Below are positions 11,981 through 45,999 of a stretch of 57,033 nucleotides of DNA, piece by piece. The notes beneath the pieces are model-generated. The model was not told the DNA's origin and ran no database searches. It was given only the letters and a program-made list of their open reading frames with translations. Source of the DNA: a virus. A program made the translations under genes and the position numbers. The stretch spans positions 1-57,033 of the IMG/VR virus record IMGVR_UViG_3300031785_000002; one strand, written 5' to 3'. Within the stretch, counting starts at the first letter, position 1, and each line of letters opens with the position of its first letter.

Positions 11981-14900
11981 ATGGGGCAATATTACGTTCA
12001 GGGTAGCTCTGGTAAATACTACTCTTTTAATATATCTGGTCAGTCTCCTAATGATGCCGAGCAAGGCAAGATTCAGCAGATTCTTCAGCAAAACAATGAT
12101 TCATTGATTGGTGGTCAGCCCACCTCTGAAGAGAAGGGCGGGTTTGGCGCGGCTCTTTCTGGCGGCATAGACACGCTACAGCTTGGCTTTGGCTCTGCTA
12201 TAGAAGGTCTTGGAGAGTCAACTGACATAGACTTTCTGAAAGAATATGGCAAAGAAGTTGTAGAAACAAACAAACAACAACTTGCCGACAATGAACAGTA
12301 TCGAACCAGAATAGATGACATAACTGGCGTTGGCAGTGCATTGTCATTTGCTGGTCAAGCCATAGTTGAGCAAGTTCCCCAGATAGGCTCAACGCTTGCT
12401 GGTGCATATGCTGGCGCTAAAGTAGGCGCGGCTCTTGGCCCAAAGGGGGCAATAGTTGGCGGTATAGCTGGCGGTGTAAGTGCAAACCTTCCATTCTTTT
12501 ATGGCATGAACCGTGAGGCTCAAAAAGATGTAAGCCCTGTAGTTGATGAAGGTATTGCGGCCCTTACAGCCATTCCTCAATCTATATTAGATTTTATTGC
12601 TGACCGGATTGTGGTTGGCGCAATATTTACGCCAAAGTTTATAAATGGTGGGGGAATATTTAGCAGGATTGCAAAAGGCGCTGGCGCTGGTGCGGCGGCT
12701 GAAGTTCCAACAGAGCTTGGTCAACAAGTTCTTGAGAGACTTCAGGCTGGCAAAGAACTTGCAAGCGAAGAGGCAATTAAAGAATATCGTGATGTAGCAA
12801 TCACCGCTGGCCTTGTCGGCGGAAGTATTCGCGGTACATCAAACCTTATCGCAGGGGACAGAAACAAGAAAGACCATGCGGAAAAAACACGCCAGCTAGA
12901 TGAGGATTTCAGAGAGCTTCAACAAGAAGTTCACGGTAATGCCGCGCTTGGCCTGAAGAAGAAAAACGAATTAGCCCCAGACCCATCTGTTAAATCAGAA
13001 GTTATTAAGCAGGGCAATCAAGTAGAGGCACAGCAACAGGCAATTTTAAAAGCTCAAGAGGCCGCTGTTGCTGGAACATCAAGGCTGAATTTAAAAAGAC
13101 TCTCTGAAGAAGAGCAGTCTACATTGGGTCAGTACAGGCAGGCGATTGGCTCATCACAACGCCCCTTTACAACTGTTGCAGAACTCAGAGATGCTGGCCT
13201 TACTGATAGAGCGGATTCAATACAGGAACAGCAACTTGGCGTTCTCAACGCTAAGATGGAGGATAGGGCCACAGTAAAACATAAATTTACTCAGGCTCAA
13301 TATGACGCGGCTGTAGAAAGAGTGAAGAGGGATGGGGTGGCAGAAGTTGCCAACATCAGAGACGCCGCCAAAACAGAAAAGGGAAACAAGCCAGCAGAGT
13401 CAGTTGCGGAATCAATTCGTGATGAGATGATTGCCAATAGGGTTATTAAAAAAATAAACAACTCTGAGTACGTTCCCCTGTCGGAAGAGGACGTAGCGGC
13501 AGACCCAGCCACTGAGCTTAGAGCGTTGCTATCAAGAGAGCAGAAGAAGCTAGAGTCTAAAAGAAAAGCAAAAGAAGATATGAAGGAGCGCCAACGCGCC
13601 CTGCTTCAGTCTTGGGATGGCTCGTCACCACAAGAATCGGCTTTGGAAGTTACACAGAAAGAAGACGCTCGCATAGACAGTGATATTGCTGTTTCTGAAA
13701 AGACAGTAAAGAACATACAAAGACAGATTGACTCTATAGACGCAAGAAGTGGTGCGGCTGGTCAACTTGCTAAACAAACCTTTACTGCCGAAGACTCTAT
13801 GCTTGCTTTACGAGCCGCTCAAGAAGCATCTAAAGCAAAGCCACGGGCAGAATACGAGACTCGCAAAAAAGAAATAGCAAAAAAGATAGAGAGCTATGCA
13901 AAGAAAGACCTTGGGCTAAAGGGCTTCAAGTTTTCTTTTGAAGACGAGCTTGGCGGTTCAAGGCCGGGAACTGTAGGGCAGGGTTACTATGACCCTAAGC
14001 AAAAGCTGATTGCTATTGCTGTCGGAATATACGACCCGAATATGAGTGACGCTGATTACATAGCTCGCTTAAAGGGTGTGATGAACCATGAGGTTATCCA
14101 TGCACTGCGCGATGCCCGACTGTTTACAGATGCAGAGTTCCAAACTTTAGTCAACGCCGCAAATAAAAGAAAAGTGACCGTTGTTCGCAATGGCGAGAAC
14201 GTACAGCGTGATTATAACTTTGTGGACAGAGCGCTTAAATTAAACAGAAGAAGAGATGGGGAAACAGATGCTCAGTTCACAGCTAGGGTAAACGAAGAAG
14301 CTGTAGCGGAAATGTTTAGGTCATACGCTGACGGCAGACTGAAGGTGGCTGGCAAGCCCCTGTCTCTGTTCAAGAGGATTATTAATTTCTTCTTAGGTGT
14401 AAAGTCTGCACATATTGACACAGGCTTTGATAGCGTTGATGCAATATTTGAAGACATCAAGACAGGAAAGATTGGGAGCAGAAGTCAAACAGACCTAGAA
14501 GGGCGTGTACGCAGAAGAGGTGACCCTGTGCAAGAGGCCGTAGATGAGTTGGCTATAGAGTCAGCATATACTGCCTTTGATGCAGATGACCCAGAAGACT
14601 ATGTTGCAATGTCCGTGGCTGACAGAGACTTCTCAGAGGTTGGCGATGTCAGTATTTTGCCAGATGAAGCCCTGCAAAACGCACAATTCATCAGGGCAAA
14701 CAAGCAAAAATCCACCGACCAAAAGAAAATCATGGGCAAGCTGTTTGCCAATAGAGATTTAGACGATGGTACAATAGTTTCTATTAGACCAAATCTAAAT
14801 GGATTTATAGAGGGCGATAATGGGCGTTTGCAAATGACCCAAACCGTCCATGAAGGGCGTAACTACAGCACGGCACTTGGCTATGACATATTTGCGACTG

Positions 14901-17900
14901 TGAGCAATCCTGAGATGCTGGTAAGCCCAGCAAAAAGAAGAGATATCTATAACGGAGAAACACCTAAAGGGGCAAAGCAAGACAAAGTTCCAATGGCTAG
15001 TGGCTCTGGTGGCTATGTCAACATGACAAGGGGTGAGGCTGAGTTAATTATCAACAACCCAGACCATGTTCTTTCTTTCAACCCCGGAAGCAAGAAGCGT
15101 GAAGTTGTAGGACATCACCTATTCGTTGACGAGAAGGGCTATGCTGTAGAGAAAGTTGACGGCGTTGGCGTACACTTTGGCGGGAAGATATTTGTTAAGG
15201 GCAAGCTCGTACATTACACAAGCGAGAACGCTCCTCAACCTCTTGATGGCCTGCCCACATCTGTAAAATATATAGACAATTCTGAGAAAGACTTTTCGGA
15301 AGTCTTCTCACCTGAACTGCCAATGGCACAAACAGACAAAGTTGGTGTAATAGCTCACAAGCTACCAAAAGAACTCTTGGTGCAAGGCACTGGAGAAAAG
15401 GCAACCATTCCTGTGCCGCAGGCATTTACGCCAAACAACAAAGGCACTGTGTTTAACAACATTGACAGGCTAAAAGAAAAGCATCCAGATGCCATGTCAT
15501 CTGCACAGGCGTTTATGAGAATGCAACAAGATGCCATGGGTGGAGAGTTCGTACCCCTGCCGCCACTAAACGCAATTAATTATGCCAACGACCCAATGCG
15601 TATGGCGGCTAAGTTACGTCAGCTTACTCCAGAACTTAAAGCTGGGGTTGACGAAGGATTTTCATACGTTAGTCAAATTAAATCTTTGTACGACTCAGGC
15701 CAAGCAACGCCGGAGATGACCCTAAAGTTATTCTTGTGGGGTATTCTTTCTCGTGGCGCAGGCCCAGTACAGCAAGAGGCCGCTTATATTGACATTGTTG
15801 AGGATGCCACGCCCCTTATTAAAAAAGCTGGGCGAGGTTTTTTTACACAGGATGACATAGACACTTGGAAAAGAACCGTTAAAAAATATCTTCCTGCTGG
15901 CTCTCCGGGCCGTCAGGTTACAATGAATGTAAACGCCGCTGGAAAGCTCATGTTTGAGATGTCCAAGCGCTCTCCACAAAACAATAATATTACCGTTGGT
16001 GAAGAAATACATCAGCTTATGCTGAACAACAATGTCAGTGGGCGTGCAGTGCGTAGAGCGTTTTTATCTCTGACCAATAAAGCTGGCATTGACAACAAGG
16101 TTGTCTCCTTTGTTCTTTTAGTCGGCGGCAAGACCGACCTTCTTATCATGGACAGGATTCAAACTAGCAATATGTTTGATGATGGGCGATTTGGTGGGGC
16201 TAATTTGTACGATGGTATATTCTTAGGAACATACAATCAGAAAAACGGCAAGCCATATAACGATGGACTTGCAAAGCTCTTAATAGGCCCACGCGGCTCT
16301 CTTGTGACTGAGTTTATGGAAGATGGCATAAGGCCAAATGTTGAACTTGCATACGGCATAGTGGGTAGGCCAGAGGACGCAAGCCTTGGTAGATTTCACT
16401 GGGAAAGCTGGGTGATTGAGGGTGAACAGGTAGTTAATCACTCTACCCTTGCCGCAATAGCAGAGAACAATCCTGTTGGTCATGCTGTTACAGAAGGCAA
16501 GCCGTTTACGTTTAGTTCTGGAATGACATACAGAAGAGCGCCTAGTGGTGCAGTTGTAGAGTATCCGTTAAGTGATGGCTCTCCTGTATTTATGACCCCA
16601 ACAAGATTTAAAGCATTTACAAAAAGACTATCCGATAAAGGAGTAAAAGACGGCATATATCCACAAGGGTTCAAGGTTAGTGACGCAACTGCACAGCCGT
16701 GGTACACTCTTCCAGAGGTTAACAGGAGTAAGTTAGATGAAATCGCAAAACAATTCGAGAACGCAAGACCCAATGGAAGTCTTCGTGACGGCACTGAGAG
16801 GGCTGGAAAAGACACCGTTACCATTAAGCGAGGCGACGGAAGAAAGCCTGAACGAACAGACGGAAGAGACTTCTCCTCAGTCCCAGCAGTCGAGGGACTA
16901 AATACCCTCAAAGACTTTATCAGAAATAATCCTGATGGCTACACATTAAACTCTCAAGGTGTTCTTATTCCACCGGGAACTCCTGACTCAGGAATTGCCG
17001 TAGCACCTATTAAAGCGGCAGAACTAATTGTTGGGCCAGATATACCATTAGAGGTTTTGAGAGAGTACGTTGAAAACGCTAAGTCAGTTTCGGAAGTATT
17101 AGACCAAGAAGTCTTTTTAGGCGGATGGCTTAATGAAGCGGATAATCAGTATTATCTTGACAATGCGATTTTAGTGAGGGATAAGGTAGAAGCGTTATAT
17201 ATTGCTGAAGCGGCAGAGCAAGAAGCTATTTATGATTTGACAGTGCCGCCATACGGACAGGAGATAGTCACCAATGAAGGAATCAAACAACTCCAAGAAA
17301 CCGGAATTTATCGGGATAACATCGCAGAGCGATACAGACGAGGTATTGACGAAGCTAGTCGCCTCTTTAGAAAGTCAAGGCTTTCGAATCCAGAACAAGG
17401 AAGAGTTGAAAGAGCAAGAGACGCAGACCTCTTAGACATCTTTTCTCAAGACGATGCGTTTACAGAGCGTCTGTCTCAGGACGACTTGCAACAACTGCAA
17501 GAAGTTCAAGAATTATTTTCCTCTATTAATGAATCTCCTCGCGACTTTATGGAAGTGCCGAGCAACCCATCGGCTCCAATCGCTAACCCTGTAGCTGTCA
17601 GGGCAAGGAATCGTGGGGAAACCGTAGCCAACCCATATTTATTTGGTGTTATTGAAGACGGCGGCAGAAAGTATGCCGTGTCTTTACTTGCTGGTCAACA
17701 CGCCGAAGGTCAGTCAAGGGAGGAGCGCCCTGTTCCTACCATGGGTAGCTTTGGGCTTTATCACATCCACCAAAGAGGTCATGACAAAGAGCTTACAGAT
17801 AACAGTAAGTTCCCATCTGTAGAGGAGGCTATATACGCCACACTCCGTCAATGGGATAGACAGGGAAGGTCAGATGGAGAAGTGATTGTCATACCAGATG

Positions 17901-20900
17901 GCGGTGACTTCAACATGGACTTGCGTATGGAATGGAAAAGCCCATCACACAAATCCCCACCTCTTGTCCTGTCACTTCAGTACATAGCAAACAGAAAAAA
18001 TCCCTTTTACACTGTACGCACATTCTACCCTGAACTTTCTGACACTTCCTACAAGGGGTTGATGAAGGAAAAGAAGGTGGGCAGATTTGACGAAATGTCA
18101 GTTCCGCTTGCACCAGAAACAGTCAGGCTTGGTCAGCAGATAACAGAGAATCAGCATCACATAGTCTACTCAAAGTCCTATGATGTTTTGTCAAAGGCTA
18201 TGAAAATGATTCCGCTTGTTAGTGACCAGAAAGCGGAGGACATAACAAAAGAATTTATTATGCGCTTCCAAGACAGGATGTTGCCTGTCGGACAGATTAT
18301 AGATGAGTTGCGCTCTAAAGGGGCAAACATCACAGACGCCTTGGACACATACCAAAAAGAAAGTTTGTACCATGGTATAACTGGTGAGCGTATCAACACA
18401 GCAACTGACGGTCTTTACAAGCCAACAGCAGAGCTAGTGTCAACCTTAGATGTAGACGCAGATTTTGATGCGCTTGATTCTGAGTTTGCTAAATATTCTT
18501 TTGAGACAACTGGCAGTAAGAAGGTTGCCGCCATAGAGGCATATCTATATGCGCTACACGCAAAAGAAAGAAACGAATACATACGAACTATAGACCCAAG
18601 CAATGACTCAGGGTCTGGTATGGATGATGCACAAGCTGACAGAATATTGAACTGGGAGCGCTCACTTAACGAAACAGAAAGAGCAAAGTTTTTTGAAATT
18701 AGAAGCCGTGTTCGTGACATAATAGCCGACACAAATAAAATTAGAAGAGATGCCGGGTTAATACCAGAAAACTTTGAGGAAGACCCAGCCGCTATTGACG
18801 AAGAGGGTAAAGAATTTAAACCGCCCCCTGTTTATTCTGATTATGTTCCGCTTAGAGGAATACTAGACCCGATGGGAGAGGCAAATGAAGATGCTTCTTT
18901 CGCTGGCACTGGTGGGGCTTCTTATTCAGTGAGGGGAAGAGAAGATAAAAGAGCGCTTGGTAGAGATACATACCCAACAAACCTACTTGCTGGGGTTTTT
19001 ATGCAACATCAAAACTCAATCATACGCTCTGAAAAGAATGAAGTTGCCAAGTCGTTCTTAAATTTGCTGAAGGCCAATAGAGACGGCATGGCAGATTACG
19101 CTATAGAACTAAAGACAATGCCGATGAAAAGAGGCATAGTTAATGGTACAGTTCGAGTGATACCAGACTTAACAGCTTCACAAGACCCAAGCATTTTGCA
19201 GGTTAAGCAAAATGGTAATGTTACTCGAATTAGACTAAAAGACGCACGTTTGGCTAGGGCGTTGAACGGAAGTGTGGGAGTAAGCCCGCAAACATCAAAT
19301 GCACTTACTCGTAGCTTGGGTGTACTTAACAGATATCTTTCAAACATCAATACATCTTTTAACCCTGAGTTTCTTGTCACCAATATGTTCCGTGACATAC
19401 AAACCGCTGGCGTAAACGTCAATCAATATGAACGCGCTGGTTTAACCAAAGAGGTAATGAAGAACTTTAAACAAGCCTTTAAAGGTGTAAGGGATGTTGT
19501 TCGTACTGAGGGTCAAGCATCAAACATAACAAGAGAAATGGCAGAGAAGGCTGACTTTGATATAGATAAAATATCAAATGCAGATTTGTTTAGGCTGTTC
19601 CAGATATATGGTGGACAGAACGCAACAAACATGATGTCTGACCTTGCAGACCAAGTTAATAATGTAAACAGCTTAGTTGGTGATATAGCTGAGTCTGGCG
19701 CTAGAGGCCAATGGAATAAAATTAAAAATAGTTTTGTTGGAGAGAAGACGGGTTCACTTTTAAAACTTCTTGAAGATTACAACACTGTCGTGGAAAACGC
19801 TATCCGTGTCGCAACCTTCAAAGCCCTTGCCCCTAAGATTGGCTTTCAAAAGGCCGCATTTGCCGCGAGAAACGTAACCGTTGATTTCGCAAAGGGTGGT
19901 GAGTACAAGAACGCAATGAACTCTGCGTATCTGTTCTACAACGCATCACTGCAAGGCTCGTTTGCCCTTTTGAATGCCGCAACACGTTCAGCAAAGGTTC
20001 GTAAGATTTGGGCTGGGTTGATTGTGTTTGGAATTGTACAAGACCAGCTTAACGCCGCGTTCTCAGAAGAGGATGAGGATGGTGAGTTGGTGTACGATAA
20101 AACACCTCAATACATCTTAGAACACAATATGATATTCCCAATGTTTGGATTAGGGCCGACAGAGCGCTCTGAACTTGCGATACCTATGCCGTATGGCCTG
20201 AACATGGCTGTAAACTTTGGGCGCTCACTTAGCAGATACGCCAGAGGAGCTTACACCGTTGGGGAGGCTGGCAGTAGCATAATCGGTACAGCAGTGGACA
20301 CGATTAATCCTTTGGGCGGCACAAACAACTTCTTTAACTTTGTAGCGCCAACAATATTTGACCCATTCATTGATATCTACAGCAATGAGGAAGAGTTTTC
20401 TGGTAGGCCTATTACAAAAGAGACATCGCCATTTGACCCAACTCCACCACCTGACAGTCAGCTATACTGGTCTACAACAAGTCCATCAGCCAAGTGGATA
20501 GCGGCAAACCTTAACTCTCTTACTGGCGGCAATGCCATTCAAAGCGGCATCGTTGATGTGTCACCAGACCTTTTGGAATATTGGGTTGGCTTTTTAACTG
20601 GTGGCGCTGGTATGTTTGCACAGCGCTCCGTTGACCTTGCAACTGAAACAATCCCGACCGCTCTTACAGAGGGATTTGAAGATGAAATGGTTAGGCAGAT
20701 ACCGTTTGCCAGAAAGGTATTTTATAGTGTCTCTGAAAGAGAAGACCTGAGCGGCTTTATAGAAAACAGAAACAAAGTTCTACAGGCACAAGAGTTACTT
20801 AAATCCGCTCTTGAGGCTGGTGACCCTGCACAGGCAAGAAGTGTAAGGCAAAGGTATGCAACAGAGTTGCGTATATCTGGTCAGGTAAAGGCGCTCAACA

Positions 20901-21052
20901 ATGCGAGAAACAGACTTCTGCGTAAGATGAGACAGGTCAAAGACAATCCAAGATTACCAGAAGAGCAAAAGGACAAAATTATCAAAAGACTTGGCGATCA
21001 GCTTCAGACTGTTATCACCAGAGCAAACAAGCTGATGAACGAAAACCTATAA
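11981..21052 (+). CDS. Giant polyvalent internal virion protein (3,023 residues)
   Basis: Start ATG has GAGGAG upstream. Visible parts: Gly/Ala-rich hydrophobic stretch 115-175; coiled coils about 300-660; a zincin-like peptidase core with MNHEVIHAL (H703-E704-x-x-H707) and a candidate third ligand in NEEAVAE (771-777); several unassigned globular regions, including 1880-2040 with GSFGLYHIHQRGHDKELT; an LPD38-like C-terminal region with FNPEFLVTNMFRDIQ (from 2460); a basic coiled C-terminus. It belongs to the 'large polyvalent protein' class of phages, which are thought to be injected with DNA. The last gene of the late operon, it ends at a strong terminator. Confidence 0.7.
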   Translation: MGQYYVQGSSGKYYSFNISGQSPNDAEQGKIQQILQQNNDSLIGGQPTSEEKGGFGAALSGGIDTLQLGFGSAIEGLGESTDIDFLKEYGKEVVETNKQQLADNEQYRTRIDDITGVGSALSFAGQAIVEQVPQIGSTLAGAYAGAKVGAALGPKGAIVGGIAGGVSANLPFFYGMNREAQKDVSPVVDEGIAALTAIPQSILDFIADRIVVGAIFTPKFINGGGIFSRIAKGAGAGAAAEVPTELGQQVLERLQAGKELASEEAIKEYRDVAITAGLVGGSIRGTSNLIAGDRNKKDHAEKTRQLDEDFRELQQEVHGNAALGLKKKNELAPDPSVKSEVIKQGNQVEAQQQAILKAQEAAVAGTSRLNLKRLSEEEQSTLGQYRQAIGSSQRPFTTVAELRDAGLTDRADSIQEQQLGVLNAKMEDRATVKHKFTQAQYDAAVERVKRDGVAEVANIRDAAKTEKGNKPAESVAESIRDEMIANRVIKKINNSEYVPLSEEDVAADPATELRALLSREQKKLESKRKAKEDMKERQRALLQSWDGSSPQESALEVTQKEDARIDSDIAVSEKTVKNIQRQIDSIDARSGAAGQLAKQTFTAEDSMLALRAAQEASKAKPRAEYETRKKEIAKKIESYAKKDLGLKGFKFSFEDELGGSRPGTVGQGYYDPKQKLIAIAVGIYDPNMSDADYIARLKGVMNHEVIHALRDARLFTDAEFQTLVNAANKRKVTVVRNGENVQRDYNFVDRALKLNRRRDGETDAQFTARVNEEAVAEMFRSYADGRLKVAGKPLSLFKRIINFFLGVKSAHIDTGFDSVDAIFEDIKTGKIGSRSQTDLEGRVRRRGDPVQEAVDELAIESAYTAFDADDPEDYVAMSVADRDFSEVGDVSILPDEALQNAQFIRANKQKSTDQKKIMGKLFANRDLDDGTIVSIRPNLNGFIEGDNGRLQMTQTVHEGRNYSTALGYDIFATVSNPEMLVSPAKRRDIYNGETPKGAKQDKVPMASGSGGYVNMTRGEAELIINNPDHVLSFNPGSKKREVVGHHLFVDEKGYAVEKVDGVGVHFGGKIFVKGKLVHYTSENAPQPLDGLPTSVKYIDNSEKDFSEVFSPELPMAQTDKVGVIAHKLPKELLVQGTGEKATIPVPQAFTPNNKGTVFNNIDRLKEKHPDAMSSAQAFMRMQQDAMGGEFVPLPPLNAINYANDPMRMAAKLRQLTPELKAGVDEGFSYVSQIKSLYDSGQATPEMTLKLFLWGILSRGAGPVQQEAAYIDIVEDATPLIKKAGRGFFTQDDIDTWKRTVKKYLPAGSPGRQVTMNVNAAGKLMFEMSKRSPQNNNITVGEEIHQLMLNNNVSGRAVRRAFLSLTNKAGIDNKVVSFVLLVGGKTDLLIMDRIQTSNMFDDGRFGGANLYDGIFLGTYNQKNGKPYNDGLAKLLIGPRGSLVTEFMEDGIRPNVELAYGIVGRPEDASLGRFHWESWVIEGEQVVNHSTLAAIAENNPVGHAVTEGKPFTFSSGMTYRRAPSGAVVEYPLSDGSPVFMTPTRFKAFTKRLSDKGVKDGIYPQGFKVSDATAQPWYTLPEVNRSKLDEIAKQFENARPNGSLRDGTERAGKDTVTIKRGDGRKPERTDGRDFSSVPAVEGLNTLKDFIRNNPDGYTLNSQGVLIPPGTPDSGIAVAPIKAAELIVGPDIPLEVLREYVENAKSVSEVLDQEVFLGGWLNEADNQYYLDNAILVRDKVEALYIAEAAEQEAIYDLTVPPYGQEIVTNEGIKQLQETGIYRDNIAERYRRGIDEASRLFRKSRLSNPEQGRVERARDADLLDIFSQDDAFTERLSQDDLQQLQEVQELFSSINESPRDFMEVPSNPSAPIANPVAVRARNRGETVANPYLFGVIEDGGRKYAVSLLAGQHAEGQSREERPVPTMGSFGLYHIHQRGHDKELTDNSKFPSVEEAIYATLRQWDRQGRSDGEVIVIPDGGDFNMDLRMEWKSPSHKSPPLVLSLQYIANRKNPFYTVRTFYPELSDTSYKGLMKEKKVGRFDEMSVPLAPETVRLGQQITENQHHIVYSKSYDVLSKAMKMIPLVSDQKAEDITKEFIMRFQDRMLPVGQIIDELRSKGANITDALDTYQKESLYHGITGERINTATDGLYKPTAELVSTLDVDADFDALDSEFAKYSFETTGSKKVAAIEAYLYALHAKERNEYIRTIDPSNDSGSGMDDAQADRILNWERSLNETERAKFFEIRSRVRDIIADTNKIRRDAGLIPENFEEDPAAIDEEGKEFKPPPVYSDYVPLRGILDPMGEANEDASFAGTGGASYSVRGREDKRALGRDTYPTNLLAGVFMQHQNSIIRSEKNEVAKSFLNLLKANRDGMADYAIELKTMPMKRGIVNGTVRVIPDLTASQDPSILQVKQNGNVTRIRLKDARLARALNGSVGVSPQTSNALTRSLGVLNRYLSNINTSFNPEFLVTNMFRDIQTAGVNVNQYERAGLTKEVMKNFKQAFKGVRDVVRTEGQASNITREMAEKADFDIDKISNADLFRLFQIYGGQNATNMMSDLADQVNNVNSLVGDIAESGARGQWNKIKNSFVGEKTGSLLKLLEDYNTVVENAIRVATFKALAPKIGFQKAAFAARNVTVDFAKGGEYKNAMNSAYLFYNASLQGSFALLNAATRSAKVRKIWAGLIVFGIVQDQLNAAFSEEDEDGELVYDKTPQYILEHNMIFPMFGLGPTERSELAIPMPYGLNMAVNFGRSLSRYARGAYTVGEAGSSIIGTAVDTINPLGGTNNFFNFVAPTIFDPFIDIYSNEEEFSGRPITKETSPFDPTPPPDSQLYWSTTSPSAKWIAANLNSLTGGNAIQSGIVDVSPDLLEYWVGFLTGGAGMFAQRSVDLATETIPTALTEGFEDEMVRQIPFARKVFYSVSEREDLSGFIENRNKVLQAQELLKSALEAGDPAQARSVRQRYATELRISGQVKALNNARNRLLRKMRQVKDNPRLPEEQKDKIIKRLGDQLQTVITRANKLMNENL

Positions 21053-27204: not shown

Positions 27205-28110
27205 TTACATAGATGTATCGATTGGTAGGGTGTCATCGAGTGTCACTTTCATATCTGACACCTTTGACGCTCTGCCATGTAAGTAATTATTCCATGAACG
27301 TGCAAGCATAATTGCATACATATGGGTGGTAATCCTAGCAAACCTATCCATACGCAAGCGAGACACGGTTGAAAGCAAAAGACGGACAGGAGAACGAGGA
27401 CCGTTACCGTACCCTGCAATTAAGTCGTCCATAAACTTCTTAACCTTTTCAGAATGACCCTGCTTCCATGCAAAATACATCAAAGCAGTGACGTGTGGAT
27501 CAGGATAAGCAGTGTGCTTTTTTACGGCCTTGGCTTTTTTGATGCAAAGTTCAAGAACTGATTTATCGATTACGTTGTTGTATAATTCCAACATCTCACG
27601 CAAATCGATTTCCATTCCTCTTGCATCGGTATTGCCAGACTTCCATGCCATAATCATGCGAATACCCTTGCCAGTTTCAAGTGGATAAGGAACACCCTCT
27701 CCGTGAAACAAGTCGTGGTTATTACGCACTTTACCAACGTCCATATGCACACGACTTGAGGCTTCAATTCCAAATGCCACATGGGTGACAAAAGGAACGC
27801 CAGCCCTGACGCAAGCAAACAGGCGATTCTGACCATTCATCAAGACACCATTTTTTGAAAACTGAATTGTGTCTCCGGTCAAAGACCAATTTCCAGAAGA
27901 CATATCTTTAGCATAGCGTCTGATATTCTTTTTCTTTTTAGTCCTGTTATTGACGTTGAGGTTCTCAAGAACATACGATGCGAGTTTTGGTGAAAACTCA
28001 ATAATACGTGTGTTCTCAGGTGGGTTTGAAATTAACGAGGATAAACTAGATTTCTGCTCGTCAATATTCATGTCGGCACTTACGCGCCTCTTTTTTGATA
28101 CCTTATCCAT
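27205..28110 (-). CDS. ParB-like / sulfiredoxin-fold phage protein
   Basis: 301 residues from ATG 28110 with AAGGTG six bases upstream; the 5' extension to 28278 is rejected. The N-terminal third has NRTKKKKNIRRYAKDMSSGNWSL, IQFSKNGVLMNGQNRLFACVRAG and HMDVGKVRNNHDLF, the ParB-type 'NGQNRL' signature common in phage proteins. The rest is helical and unassigned. In this family the role is not settled (DNA binding or nucleotide hydrolysis). Regulated possibly by the dyad at 28213. Confidence 0.6.
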   Translation of the reverse strand: MDKVSKKRRVSADMNIDEQKSSLSSLISNPPENTRIIEFSPKLASYVLENLNVNNRTKKKKNIRRYAKDMSSGNWSLTGDTIQFSKNGVLMNGQNRLFACVRAGVPFVTHVAFGIEASSRVHMDVGKVRNNHDLFHGEGVPYPLETGKGIRMIMAWKSGNTDARGMEIDLREMLELYNNVIDKSVLELCIKKAKAVKKHTAYPDPHVTALMYFAWKQGHSEKVKKFMDDLIAGYGNGPRSPVRLLLSTVSRLRMDRFARITTHMYAIMLARSWNNYLHGRASKVSDMKVTLDDTLPIDTSM

Positions 28111-28212
28111 AGGTATCACCTTGCCTTTCTCCCCAGTCCGTTTGTATGGGGGATTAGGTTGCCTTGCCCAAGGGCGTTCATGTCTCCCAGTGGTGGGCAA
28201 TCCACAGGAAAT

Positions 28213-28229: not shown

Positions 28230-28243
28230 ATAAAAAATAAGTA

Positions 28244-28384
28244 GAGAGGGGCGGCACATGACAAACCGCCCCCCTCAAGTTGTTGTGGTGTGCTGTGAGG
28301 TCGGAGAACAGTCACCCTAGTGTGGTAACCTCACAACTTTCTCCAGACGCACCACGCGCCTGTCAACAACAACCCACACTAGGT
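28244..28384. ncRNA. Candidate structured RNA / pseudoknotted intergenic element
   Basis: Hairpin GGGGCGG/CCGCCCC (about 28247-28273), then five perfect complementary arms: GTTGTTG (28279)/CAACAAC (28364), GTGGTG (28285)/CACCAC (28350), TGTGAGGT (28294)/ACCTCACA (28328), GGAGAA (28303)/TTCTCC (28339), CCTAGTGTGG (28316)/CCACACTAGG (28374). Some arms interleave, so they imply pseudoknots or alternative folds. Nothing in coding terms explains it. Strand is unresolved, but surrounding transcripts are minus. Confidence 0.5.
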
Positions 28385-28389
28385 AACTG

Positions 28390-28569
28390 TTATCGTTTTT
28401 TCCTGACCAGTTGAATAGTTGCTACTATCATCATTCCACATCCAGTGTACATAACAACAACACCAGCAACCACATGACCATTTGGATTTTCTACTGCACC
28501 AGTGCCAGCCATCATTACAACAAGGCCAAGCACCCAAGTGTAGCACCACATCATAAACCTAGTCATCAT
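28390..28569 (-). CDS. Small membrane protein
   Basis: 59 residues from the ATG-ATG at 28569, after GAGGGGG. Two hydrophobic segments: WVLGLVVMMAGTGAV (about 11-26) and HVVAGVVVMYTGCGMMIVATIQLV (about 33-56), ending RKKR. Could act at the host membrane early in infection. No family recognised. Confidence 0.5.
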   Translation of the reverse strand: MMTRFMMWCYTWVLGLVVMMAGTGAVENPNGHVVAGVVVMYTGCGMMIVATIQLVRKKR

Positions 28570-28813
28570 ATACATTCCCCCTCATCATATCCACATGATA
28601 AGTGAACTCATCATATGTTAGCCACCTGTAAGGTGATGCGTCAATAGTGAAATCAGGCAACACAGGGTGTTGGGCATCTTTGTTTGGGTCAATGTCCTCG
28701 ACCTTGTAAACATTGTGCCATGCCTTGCGTATACCCTCGTCATCCTCATCTATATCAGGAACATACCGATAGCCGTTATATCGGTAGTTTGGTGCATTAT
28801 GCCAACTAATCAT
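28559..28813 (-). CDS. Small acidic protein
   Basis: 84 residues from ATG 28813 with GGAG seven bases upstream. Aromatic/acidic: NYRYNGYRYVPDIDEDDEG, YKVEDIDPNKD and YRWLTYDEFTYHVDMM. Overlaps the downstream gene start and the upstream gene end. Possible DNA-mimic or inhibitor by charge, but that is only a guess. Confidence 0.45.
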   Translation of the reverse strand: MISWHNAPNYRYNGYRYVPDIDEDDEGIRKAWHNVYKVEDIDPNKDAQHPVLPDFTIDASPYRWLTYDEFTYHVDMMRGNVYDD

Positions 28814-30208: not shown

Positions 30209-31339
30209 CTATGCCGCCACCTCAATGCGTGTTGTCTCACCAAAAGGTGCGTCACTACACTGTGGGTCTGTTGATACCCACAGCACAGGATAGTCGGGCG
30301 TGTTGTCTGGAAAATCCCAGATACCCATGTCTGTCAGGTAGACCATGTTGTCTACTGGTAAATCATTCTCGCGAATGTATCTGAAGACAGGCTCTACCCT
30401 AGTGCCGCCCCTGCCATTGCACTCAATAGTGTCGATGATATCGCCCTGTTCATAGCGAACAACAGACTTGATATCAGCGTCACAAGTGATGACAGTGACA
30501 GACCGTGGCTTGTGGTCATCGGTGATATTGTTCAACTCGCCAAGGAACTGCTGTAACTCAGCGGTGCTGACAGACCCCGATGTATCAACAGCAACTACGA
30601 CATCACCCACACCAATCTTGTCAATGCTGGGCGTGTATATGCCCTGCGTATACCAGACTTTTTTGTTGGGCTTGCGAAACGTGTAGTCATCAGGCTGGTC
30701 ACCGCCAATGAAGCGATTGAACACGTCACGCCAATCAACCTTAGAGCGCCGCATTTGCTCGACTAACTCAGCGATAGCGGCTGGCAGTTTACCCATACCC
30801 TTGGCACTGGCGGCGGCAAGCATAACCCTTTGGTCAATGGTAGCCTCTACCTGACTGGCCTGAGACTTAGACAACTTCTCACCGTCATCACCCAAGCAAT
30901 CCCTCACATCACCCCATGGGCATGGTGTGGGTTGCTCAGGCTGTTCTGCAGCCAGTTGGTCATAGATGCGCTCTGCCGTCATACCCTTGAACTGCGGGTC
31001 AAACAGACCACCTTCTGGCAACTCAAAGTTACCATCCAACAGTATGTGATTGATAGCGTGGTCACAGGCAATGTTCCAGCGCTCAGGGTCACGTTCACCG
31101 CGCCGTAACATATGCTTGAATGCAACGTGCAAAACCTCATGGGCAACAACGCCGATGATTTCTTTGTCGGTGTGCTGGTCAACAAAGTCACCGTTCCATT
31201 TGATGAAGCGACCGTCAGTACACATAGTCGGCACACTGTCATCACGGTGAATATTGAGGCCAAGTGCAAGTGAGCCAAAGAATGGATTGTCTAGCACAAG
31301 GCGTGTTCTGGCTCTCGCCATTTTGGTATCTGCGTCCAT
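30209..31339 (-). CDS. VWA / DUF2201-type protein with zincin-like motif
   Basis: 376 residues, GGAG seven bases before the ATG. N-terminal domain carries VVAHEVLHVAFKHML (H67-E68-x-x-H71), the DUF2201 predicted metallopeptidase motif. C-terminal VWA domain has MIDAS residues DTSGSVS (252-258), GGTRVEP (T313) and YLTDMG (D337). Such proteins pair with MoxR-type AAA ATPases; the partner is next in the operon. In bacteria such pairs load metals or act as chaperones; the phage substrate is unknown. Confidence 0.8.
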   Translation of the reverse strand: MDADTKMARARTRLVLDNPFFGSLALGLNIHRDDSVPTMCTDGRFIKWNGDFVDQHTDKEIIGVVAHEVLHVAFKHMLRRGERDPERWNIACDHAINHILLDGNFELPEGGLFDPQFKGMTAERIYDQLAAEQPEQPTPCPWGDVRDCLGDDGEKLSKSQASQVEATIDQRVMLAAASAKGMGKLPAAIAELVEQMRRSKVDWRDVFNRFIGGDQPDDYTFRKPNKKVWYTQGIYTPSIDKIGVGDVVVAVDTSGSVSTAELQQFLGELNNITDDHKPRSVTVITCDADIKSVVRYEQGDIIDTIECNGRGGTRVEPVFRYIRENDLPVDNMVYLTDMGIWDFPDNTPDYPVLWVSTDPQCSDAPFGETTRIEVAA

Positions 31340-31358
31340 GTTGGAACTCCAAAAAAAT

Positions 31359-31374
31359 TTGTACGATGGTATAG
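31359..31374. promoter_or_regulatory. TTGTAC-N4-GTATAG dyad
   Basis: TTGTAC GATG GTATAG, between the AAA ATPase stop and the VWA start on the minus operon. Shares its GATG spacer with the site at 21081. Confidence 0.5.
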
Positions 31375-31375
31375 G

Positions 31376-31395
31376 TGGGGCGGCGTGAACCGCCC
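31376..31395. other. GGGGCGG hairpin beside the dyad
   Basis: Perfect stem GGGGCGG/CCGCCCC with loop CGTGAA and no T-tract. The same dyad-plus-GGGGCGG-hairpin layout occurs at 28213-28273. Confidence 0.45.
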
Positions 31396-31404
31396 CATCA
31401 GATG

Positions 31405-32418
31405 TTAGAGCATCAACTCTTTGCCATGCGACAACAGGAACTGGCGAAACGCCTGTGTCTGTTTGATGGCAGGGTTGCGGTTGTATGCGTCTTTGACAGC
31501 GAACACCGCGAACTCTTTGTGCGGTAGGCGTGTCAGGTATTTAATGACGTTGCCAATGTTCTTGTCATTAGCCTTGTGAGCCAAGGCGGCAGACACTGCA
31601 TAACATACAGCAGGGTCTTCACTGATAGCCGCACCGTCAGGGTCAGCAATCACTGCGTCAATGTCAGGGCAAGTATCGTGTATCCCCTTGTACCCCATGA
31701 ACTCAGCGCAAGCGCCACGTCCAACCTGACCAGCGACAGCCTCTTGTTCGTTCATTGCATCCAGACCCCATTTCATCATGGTGTCCACACGCTCCCATGA
31801 GCGAGGTGATGGGCAGGAATTGGCATCACGGTCAAACTTGTGCAGCAACTCTGGGCGAAAGCGCAGGAAGCCAGTGACCAACGGTGATACGCCAACACTG
31901 TTCATATAAGCAACAGTGTCCTCTAGGTCAGCCTCGACCTCGACAAACAACAGCCTGTCTTTGAGGTGGCTTGGCATATTGTTAGTGCCAGCCCTGTCAC
32001 TGGTACGGTTGCCAGCGCATACGATTGACCAGCCGTCAGGCAAACGATGCTCACCGATACGGCGCTCATTGACCAACTGTGCGGCAATGTTCTGATTAGC
32101 TACAGGCGCTTGCGGCAACTCATCTAAAAACAGTATGCCCTCGCCATCGGCTGGCATCCAGTCAGGCCGTAGTCGCTTCATACTGTCACCGTCAGCGACA
32201 AGCCAGCCAGCCAACTCGCCAGCATCATATTGGGCAAGTGACAGAATGTTGAGGCCAACCTCGCGCTCATTAGCGATAGTCTGAACGACTGAAGTTTTAC
32301 CCAGACCAGCACCACCGACAAGGTAGGCGATAGGGCGTTGGGCATCACGTCCATTGACGTGCTGAAGTTGGCTGTCGATTGAAGCCTCGACAATAGCTTT
32401 TGCTTGTGAAATACGCAT
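31405..32418 (-). CDS. MoxR-type AAA+ ATPase
   Basis: 337 residues from ATG 32418 with GGGAG seven bases upstream; the 16-residue extension is rejected. Walker A GGAGLGKTS (35-43), Walker B ILFLDE (95-100), sensor I VCAGN (133-137). It is the ATPase half of a MoxR/VWA pair with the downstream gene at 30209 and probably remodels a target held by the VWA partner. Confidence 0.8.
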   Translation of the reverse strand: MRISQAKAIVEASIDSQLQHVNGRDAQRPIAYLVGGAGLGKTSVVQTIANEREVGLNILSLAQYDAGELAGWLVADGDSMKRLRPDWMPADGEGILFLDELPQAPVANQNIAAQLVNERRIGEHRLPDGWSIVCAGNRTSDRAGTNNMPSHLKDRLLFVEVEADLEDTVAYMNSVGVSPLVTGFLRFRPELLHKFDRDANSCPSPRSWERVDTMMKWGLDAMNEQEAVAGQVGRGACAEFMGYKGIHDTCPDIDAVIADPDGAAISEDPAVCYAVSAALAHKANDKNIGNVIKYLTRLPHKEFAVFAVKDAYNRNPAIKQTQAFRQFLLSHGKELML

Positions 32419-32465
32419 AATAAAACTCCCGATGCGTTGTTGAAAAAAGGGGGGGGTAGGCCGCA

Positions 32466-33149
32466 CTAAGCGGCCTGACCTTCAAGTTGGGCAGTCATCT
32501 CATTGACTGCATCATTCTCAGCCTGAGCCTTGTCTGCCGCCTCTTGTGCGGCGGCTTCAGCCTCACGCCTTACACGCAGTGCATCTTCAAGAGCATTCTT
32601 GAACTCTTCAAGTTGGGCTTCATCAAATTCATTGGTCTTTTTACCATCTGCGTTTGTCTTCACCAGACCGCCAATGTATGCTTTGCCAGTCTTTGACGGC
32701 TTACCGACAATTTGCTGAACCAGCTTTTGTATTTTGGTCTGCTTTTTCTGACCGCCAACCAGCTTAATCAGCTTGGCTTCTGATGTAATGCCAGCGCCAG
32801 CAAAAACTTCTGCCACCATTTCTGGGGTGACATTGTTGCCGCCAATCTCCAATTCACGTCTAGCGCCGACTGCATTCTTGTGCATTTTTTCAGCCATGCT
32901 GTCAGTAAGGCCAACGTAGTTGGTCAGCATTTCTTTTACACCCTTTGATATGGTGGTTGGCAGATGACCCTTGGCGGTAAGTTTGTGATGGGCAATGCCA
33001 GCAATTAACTGACAATAGCTGTCCATCTTCAGCGCTTGGCGCTGTTCGTTTATACCCTTTGCCTCACCAGTAAGGGCTTCGTTTTGCATTTCGTTGCTTG
33101 CCATTGCGTCAAGAACGGTATCGGAAACAGTTACGATTTGATTAGTCAT
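32466..33149 (-). CDS. Helical protein of the MoxR/VWA operon
   Basis: 227 residues from ATG 33149 with GGAG six bases upstream. Central helical part (KGVKEMLTNYVGLTDSMAEKMH), then a basic GGQKKQTKIQKLVQQIVG and a long Ala/Glu coiled coil (LRVRREAEAAAQEAADKAQAEN) before the end. Immediately upstream of the ATPase; probably an adaptor or substrate of it (inference). No family recognised. Confidence 0.55.
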   Translation of the reverse strand: MTNQIVTVSDTVLDAMASNEMQNEALTGEAKGINEQRQALKMDSYCQLIAGIAHHKLTAKGHLPTTISKGVKEMLTNYVGLTDSMAEKMHKNAVGARRELEIGGNNVTPEMVAEVFAGAGITSEAKLIKLVGGQKKQTKIQKLVQQIVGKPSKTGKAYIGGLVKTNADGKKTNEFDEAQLEEFKNALEDALRVRREAEAAAQEAADKAQAENDAVNEMTAQLEGQAA

Positions 33150-45450: not shown

Positions 45451-45516
45451 GTATAATGATTATGAACCTTGACAGTCGCATACTGCGGCTGACACTAGCC
45501 AAGACAAGGAGTTCCC

Positions 45517-45999
45517 ATGGCTAATACTACTTTTAGCGGTCCCGTCCGCTCAGAAAACGGTTTCAAGAATGTTATTAAAAGCGCGACAACTGGTGACCTT
45601 ACCAGTGAGATGACACTTTCTGTTTACACTGCTACTGTAACAGTTGCCAGTGGTGCTACTACAGGAAAAGAATCTGCTATTGGCATTCCATCAAACTTTA
45701 TTCCTCTGGCTGTTATGGTCGCCGTTACAGGCGCGGCGTCTAACAACGTAAACCTAGTTGATATCGGCACAGACGCAGACACAGATGGATTTGTTGACGG
45801 CATTGCCGCCGCAGTAAACTCAACTGGTTTCAAAGGCTTTTTCCCATGTAATGGTGTGTTGGGTATGTCTGGCGGCACAACAACAGCCGCTACAGAAACA
45901 GCAGATGAGGTTGAGATTGTTCTGTCCGGTGACCCCGGAGCAGACACAACTGTAGTTATGAAGTTTATGGGTATTTCTAGCTCATCAGACGCTTCGTAG
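45517..45999 (+). CDS. Structural protein downstream of capsid
   Basis: 160 residues, Thr/Val/Gly-rich (TTFSGPVRSENGFKNVI, VTVASGATTGKESAIGIP). The N-terminus resembles phage head or tail beta-proteins. No enzyme motif. Possible decoration protein. Confidence 0.55.
   Translation: MANTTFSGPVRSENGFKNVIKSATTGDLTSEMTLSVYTATVTVASGATTGKESAIGIPSNFIPLAVMVAVTGAASNNVNLVDIGTDADTDGFVDGIAAAVNSTGFKGFFPCNGVLGMSGGTTTAATETADEVEIVLSGDPGADTTVVMKFMGISSSSDAS

Follow-up and report, generated by a model that had tools for sequence, protein, structure and literature searches.

A conserved double-pseudoknot RNA at the 3' end of an operon in uncultivated, mostly marine phages

Architecture of the interleaved arms

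This study analyzed a 57-kb virus record (IMG/VR record IMGVR_UViG_3300031785_000002; the entire stretch of 57,033 nucleotides is hereafter called the window) that carries phage terminase, portal, and primase-helicase genes. The interleaved arms at positions 28244-28384 were identified as one member of a conserved knotted RNA family encoded on the minus strand (Table 1). The arms listed in a preliminary description of this region were all present, namely CCTAGTGTGG (28316-28325) with CCACACTAGG (28374-28383), TGTGAGGT (28294-28301) with ACCTCACA (28328-28335), GTTGTTGT (28279-28286) with ACAACAAC (28366-28373), GTGGTG (28285-28290) with CACCAC (28350-28355), and GGAGAA (28303-28308) with TTCTCC (28339-28344). 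Shuffle tests revealed that the arms cross one another beyond chance, and four pairs are conserved.

The strands follow the order P1 P3 P2 P3' P4 P1' P4' P2' in all 37 RNAs of the homologue set. P1 and P4 form an essentially linker-free H-type pseudoknot in which both helices are conserved by covariation. The P3 hairpin lies inside the first loop of this pseudoknot, and its apical loop pairs, as helix P2, with the strand just after P4. The helices measure 6-15 base pairs (P1, mostly 10-12), 8-13 base pairs (P4, mostly 10-12), approximately 5-7 base pairs (P3), and 4-8 base pairs (P2), and the spacer between P4 and P2 is a single nucleotide, usually A.

Table 1. Features of the knotted RNA and its flanks, in window positions
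Feature	Position	Strand	Remark
Preceding gene, last in the minus-strand operon that leads into the RNA	28390..28575	-	small protein of 61 amino acids, hydrophobic-rich
P1 5' arm CCUAGUGUGG	28374..28383	-	begins 6 nucleotides past the stop codon of the preceding gene
J1/3 GUUGUUGUUGA	28363..28373	-	conserved portion is GUUGA at the 3' end
P3 hairpin 5' arm CAGGCGC	28356..28362	-	
P3 apical loop GUGGU, the P2 5' strand	28351..28355	-	partner 28285-28289
P3 hairpin 3' arm GCGUCUG	28344..28350	-	
J3/4 GAGAAA	28338..28343	-	conserved portion is the 3' AA
P4 5' arm GUUGUGAGGUU	28327..28337	-	
P1 3' arm CCACACUAGG	28316..28325	-	one unpaired nucleotide (28326) separates P4 and P1 in the window copy
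L3 loop GUGACUGUUCUCC	28303..28315	-	UCUCC kept across arm families
P4 3' arm GACCUCACAGC	28292..28302	-	
P2 3' strand ACCAC	28285..28289	-	immediately after P4
Terminator-like GC hairpin	28242..28278	-	T-rich tract runs to about 28227
ParB-like gene of the preliminary description	27205..28110	-	optional downstream cargo; missing from several RNA-bearing relatives

The fold was compared with shuffled sequences at several levels. Nested folding of the minus-strand region, in which pseudoknots are not counted, was better than that of 200 of 200 dinucleotide shuffles (z -3.0); the plus strand also outfolded its dinucleotide shuffles, as expected of inverted repeats. The pseudoknot score of a near-identical copy (L009) exceeded that of 150 of 150 local shuffles, and none of 150 local dinucleotide shuffles attained the full score in any of the 18 families tested. 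With P1 and P4 given, P3 and P2 together were better than 96.6-100% of loop-and-tail shuffles. A scanner requiring only the H-type P1/P4 pseudoknot returned the same architecture as its top match in the window and in two distant relatives (L007 and L024), and then recovered it in most loci fetched through a neighboring gene; most divergent relatives, though not all, have it at the same syntenic place. Members in these neighbor-gene loci scored from -36.4 to -47.2, compared with a best score of -35.8 in 438 kb of shuffled sequence.

Covariation and conserved unpaired positions

The homologue set comprised 37 distinct RNAs in 17 clusters (less than 70% identity in the 5' arms) and was gathered mainly through neighboring phage genes, with 80 loci fetched through the primase adding many members to those from the neighbor-gene loci. 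A loose relationship links several of the 17 clusters, whereas roughly a dozen show no recognizable similarity. Compensatory changes were looked for and found in the related phages, in which the arms are kept as pairs. The pseudoknot suggested in the preliminary description thus gained strong support, with P1, P2, P3, and P4 all co-varying.

The element is present in close relatives, whose ParB-like proteins are 88-99% identical, and the eight-base pair UGUGAGGU/ACCUCACA is replaced there by the compensatory UGUGAAGU/ACUUCACA. The P1 3' arm carries two changes in L005/L033, both of which yield G-U pairs, and P2 shows a compensatory change from GUGGU/ACCAC to GUGAU/AUCAC in L020/L033. The sequence at the same place is quite different in L007 and L024 (63-68% protein identity), and the strand order is identical.

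With one representative from each of the 17 clusters, all 570 paired cells were standard (60 of them G-U), and three or four Watson-Crick types occurred at most P1 and P4 positions. This pooled figure of 100% is inflated because most members were picked by the structure scan, and in three clusters one junction nucleotide that can pair in either helix was counted in both P1 and P4. The checks based on shuffling, on P3 and P2, and on sequence-only alignments consequently carry more weight. Exceptions are two mismatches within P4 in a group of the L120/L194 type and an insertion or deletion in P4 of L145. In sequence-only alignments to which the structure of one member was applied, pairing was kept in 49 changed cells and broken in 7; four of the broken cells belong to the P2 strand of L024/L007, where L007 pairs in another register. 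The rows of L039 were left out of these sums because a one-base P4/P1 overlap caused wrong indexing, and MAFFT alignments of N-padded rows and of whole cores misaligned the arms and were excluded from counting. A gapless trimmed alignment (A9) gave a covariation score for P3 and P4 of 1.25, compared with 0.26 +/- 0.03 for shuffled alignments and at most 0.21 for slid partners. These results leave scarcely any doubt that the double-pseudoknot fold is real and conserved.

The 60 G-U pairs fix the RNA strand as minus. An RNA from the antisense strand was rejected because these pairs would be mismatches there. The same pairs bear on whether the repeats act in DNA, as a cruciform or as a replication or packaging site, a view that accords with inverted repeats lying where genes converge and close to a dispersed palindrome. 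Read from the opposite strand, the 60 G-U cells among the 570 conserved pairs would not pair, and crossing helices cannot all extrude as cruciforms; a DNA-level element is hence extremely improbable.

Three other pairings were tried and discarded. The nested minimum-energy fold contains a GUUGUUGU/ACAACAAC pairing that is not kept outside the group of the window. The pair GGAGAA/UUCUCC is broken in copies of the L014/L031 type, with three broken cells and no compensation. A possible outward continuation of P1, AACAGUUA/UGACUGUU, showed five one-sided changes and three broken cells and is not conserved.

The unpaired positions are also conserved in part. Within a GUUGA-like sequence before P3, an A occurs in 17 of 20 sequences and is preceded by G in 15 of 20, and a conserved AA precedes P4. 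The third loop (L3) is CU-rich and contains CUC in 19 of 20 sequences, compared with 7.3 expected from composition, a count reached in none of 20000 shuffles. These unpaired segments, namely GUUGA, AA, and the UCUCC loop, are the best candidates for a working surface. Three members (L147, L146, and L149) carry a further conserved sequence, CCAGUUUCGGUGGGUGCAA..GUGACCGG, right after P2 in place of a simple terminator; it may be another structured extension.

Genomic context and distribution

In 20 of 22 representatives, the distance from the preceding stop codon to the start of the RNA is between -7 and +10 nucleotides. The identity of this upstream gene varies: it is the 61-amino-acid hydrophobic gene in the window group and a 67-amino-acid gene, an AlpA-like gene, or others elsewhere. 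Of the 37 RNAs, 31 have an intrinsic terminator behind them, at a distance of 0-14 nucleotides in 30 cases, an arrangement that agrees with a terminator-ended small RNA.

The preliminary description had placed the arms directly before the ParB-like gene and had proposed a switching RNA. In the window, a terminator-like hairpin and approximately 130 nucleotides intervene between the element and this gene, and the element instead abuts the stop codon of the preceding gene. The ParB label received no Pfam support for the protein encoded at 27205..28110, which matches only PHROG 5931, a family of unknown function. The RNA is kept in three groups that lack the ParB-like gene (L035-37, L046/47/53, and L054-56); it is replaced by the same new gene in L055 and L110 and by other genes in L006 and L133, and a downstream same-strand gene was not found in 10 of 22 representatives.

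These observations decide against a regulatory leader, riboswitch, or antiterminator acting on the downstream gene. The ParB-like gene follows on the same strand in the window, and alternative arms exist in the window copy, as such a switch would have it. The competing arms GUUGUUGU/ACAACAAC and GGAGAA/UUCUCC are nevertheless confined to the closest relatives of the window or broken without compensation, a terminator separates the RNA from the gene, and the gene has its own conserved leader. The distribution largely refutes a leader, which we consider very improbable.

That second leader occupies positions 28108-28203 on the minus strand, directly 5' of the ParB-like gene, and shows strong sequence conservation (UGCYCACC..GGGAGACA..CCCUUGRGCAAGG). 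It has a possible loop pseudoknot, GCCCA/UGGGC, which becomes GCUCA/UGAGC in L007 and L024, and no Rfam match; it is a candidate cis-regulatory RNA. The cargo behind the RNA differs by phage and comprises the ParB-like protein, a CxxC protein of 242-245 amino acids, an acidic protein of 195 amino acids, or a protein of 147 amino acids, with only one sub-cut-off Pfam match among these proteins. In RNA-strand coordinates, this cargo spot lies at about 688-1275 in L006, about 2841 in L055, and about 281 in L133, and is also found in L110.

The RNA is not bound to one operon end. The relatives L044, L045, and L050-52 close the same operon with a bare terminator and without the element there. In two of these genomes (G001 and G002), where the usual site is empty, a covariance model found one copy elsewhere; it follows an AlpA-like gene, faces the gene for the giant polyvalent protein, and here too has a terminator close behind it. 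The RNA can therefore move between operon ends, as it did in one sub-clade. The absence of the ParB-like gene and the location of the G001/G002 copy reveal that the RNA is kept independently of its neighbors; the conserved thing is the RNA and not its relation to any given neighbor.

The covariance model matched seven records, each with a single match per genome, and the hosts of the RNA are a group of uncultivated, mostly marine phages with one copy per genome where the model matched. Two subfamily sequence-pattern scans of 2.9 million viral contigs found validated copies in this phage group only. The window has no DNA similarity to isolate phages; the closest isolate is Synechococcus phage MinM2, with 33% primase identity and much gene order in common. 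MinM2 yielded no model match, and the scanner matches there are GC-driven noise. A relative carried by a metagenome-assembled genome (MAG; L159) gave no model match, an absence that proves little for a fragment. The Porticoccaceae MAG contig belongs to genome G019, and a search of 369 genomes from the class of G019 gave only five weak, chance-level matches, with no P1/P2 at those sites.

No Rfam 15 family reached the gathering cut-off at the element in the window or in eight related loci, and a permissive threshold gave only an 11.7-bit snoRNA chance match away from the element. A search for tRNA and tmRNA found none. No description of such an RNA was found in the open-access literature, most subscription papers lying outside the search. 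On the evidence of Rfam and of the open-access papers that were searched, the RNA is undescribed.

Other features of the window were also recorded. The operon that ends in the RNA contains a gene pair for an AAA/MoxR-like ATPase and a DUF2201 protein (metallopeptidase plus VWA) at 30209-32466, and a MoxR and VWA pair is also found in MinM2. A gene at 11981-21052 encodes a polyvalent-type protein of 3023 amino acids, and its position matches that of the 8.4-kb 'RelA/SpoT' gene of MinM2. The Rfam Mu-gpT-DE RNA lies at 45467-45519, directly after the major capsid gene. A dispersed palindrome, TTTRTAC-N4/5-GTAYAAA, has 10 N4 copies with at most two mismatches, compared with 1.0 expected; sites include 2952, 5413, 16204, 18364, 21080, 23210, 28212, 31358, 35439, and 45394, among others. 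Its copies sit within genes and at gene junctions and, in relatives, also beside the RNA or terminator; the palindrome could be an operator, stoperator, or partition site.

Possible functions and comparison with known systems

We tentatively favor, at slightly short of even confidence, an independent structured RNA that is made as the tail of an operon transcript and works as a trans-acting small RNA. The RNA would be transcribed as the 3' end of the operon mRNA (approximately 105 nucleotides plus terminator), and a compact, nuclease-resistant small RNA would remain after decay or processing of the mRNA and act in trans during infection, with the conserved unpaired core as its putative working surface. 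Shine-Dalgarno sequences of the GGAGA type, to which the UCUCC loop is complementary, are common in this phage: GGAG lies within 20 nucleotides upstream of 15 of the 39 window genes, compared with 1.3 expected. The loop could thus pair with ribosome-binding sites of this type. Alternatively, it could be a protein-binding site; because a helix-crossing loop may not be free, binding of a protein or a metal is just as possible. In the favored reading, the RNA product itself would matter, rather than the switching of a neighbor.

Several points weigh against this small RNA. Its transcription, processing, and stability are predicted from sequence. No recognizable terminator occurs within approximately 100 nucleotides in 6 of 37 RNAs, and in family L133 a gene starts right behind the RNA. 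The L3 loop may be buried in a pseudoknot groove and hence not be free to pair, and L101 is a member without the CUC motif.

A cis-acting role as a protective 3' element, in which the knot and terminator shield the operon mRNA or a 3' fragment from exonucleases without acting in trans, is a serious rival. The placement of the knot after a stop codon and ahead of a terminator, seen at two different operon ends, its very stable interlocked fold, and the free drift of arm sequences around a fixed geometry all agree with such a role. It is nonetheless rather unlikely, since intrinsic terminators already guard 3' ends, a bare terminator suffices at the end of this operon in L044, L045, and L050, which lack the element there, and conserved unpaired nucleotides suggest more than a mechanical block.

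A more general alternative is a new class of functional RNA, possibly catalytic, that serves this phage group as a self-cleaving ribozyme or as the scaffold of a ribonucleoprotein. In such an RNA, the linker-free P1/P4 junction and the position of P2 about one nucleotide after P4 would place GUUGA, AA, and UCUCC as an active site or as a site for binding a ligand or protein. We regard such a class as unlikely. A small conserved core, variable arms, and a double pseudoknot are typical of the hepatitis delta virus (HDV), twister, and pistol ribozymes. The element resembles them in all three respects, and the nearby phage genes and terminators also fit a self-cleaving ribozyme of a new class, with a predicted active site of GUUGA, AA, and UCUCC around the P1/P4 junction. 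The ribozyme is also a serious rival, in contrast to a switch for the ParB-like gene, but a decidedly improbable one: no Rfam ribozyme matches, the strand order is unlike that of HDV, and the conserved residues consist mostly of AA and a pyrimidine loop, from which members such as L101 depart.

Conserved pseudoknotted RNAs with so much covariation are uncommon, and earlier examples often proved to have key roles as small RNAs or to function as ribozymes or riboswitches. The element recurs across an uncultured phage group without an Rfam counterpart and stays single-copy though its sequence is almost wholly replaced. It is a well-defined target for investigating what phages do with structured RNAs, because short synthetic templates suffice for in vitro assays of its fold, cleavage, nuclease resistance, and partners.

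Comparison with known systems revealed partial likenesses. A riboswitch or cis leader would lie in the 5' untranslated region (UTR) of one constant kind of regulated gene, whereas the gene downstream of the element is absent or variable. A Type III antitoxin RNA (ToxI-like) would consist of short pseudoknots in tandem beside a gene for a ToxN-like nuclease; the element has no tandem copies, and no Pfam toxin family was found in the flanking proteins. Exonuclease-resistant RNAs were compared through Rfam only, with no matches at the element. It shares with HDV-like and other double-pseudoknot ribozymes two interlocked pseudoknots, a small conserved core, and freely drifting arms, but the HDV order P1 P2 P3 P3' P1' P4 P4' P2' differs from that of the element in 37 of 37 RNAs, and Rfam gives no match.

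Among the 104 candidate RNAs of a 2010 survey (PMC2864571) are the marine phage motifs manA and wcaG, both from 5' UTRs, and a 3' UTR motif, the L17 downstream element; the RNAs of this survey that were entered in Rfam did not match the element. Like the element, manA and wcaG, which come from marine metagenomes and cyanophages (PMC2864571), are structured marine-phage motifs found by comparison, but they lie in 5' UTRs and are in Rfam, whereas the element has no Rfam match. The L17 downstream element is likewise a structured RNA in a 3' UTR (PMC2864571) but is tied to one ribosomal-protein gene, whereas the upstream gene of the element varies. The element occupies the same place after the last stop codon as the terminator-ended small RNAs derived from 3' UTRs of bacteria and phages, with a terminator in 31 of 37 cases; it differs from them in that it is a rigid, conserved double pseudoknot rather than simple stem-loops and has no known seed or Hfq site. 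With the H-type pseudoknots of viral frameshift sites and the SAM-II and preQ1 riboswitches, it shares the H-type order of P1 and P4, apparently coaxial and with little or no linker. In contrast to these, the element lies 3' of genes rather than at a frameshift site or in a 5' leader, and its first loop holds a full hairpin whose loop forms a second pseudoknot with a 3' strand.
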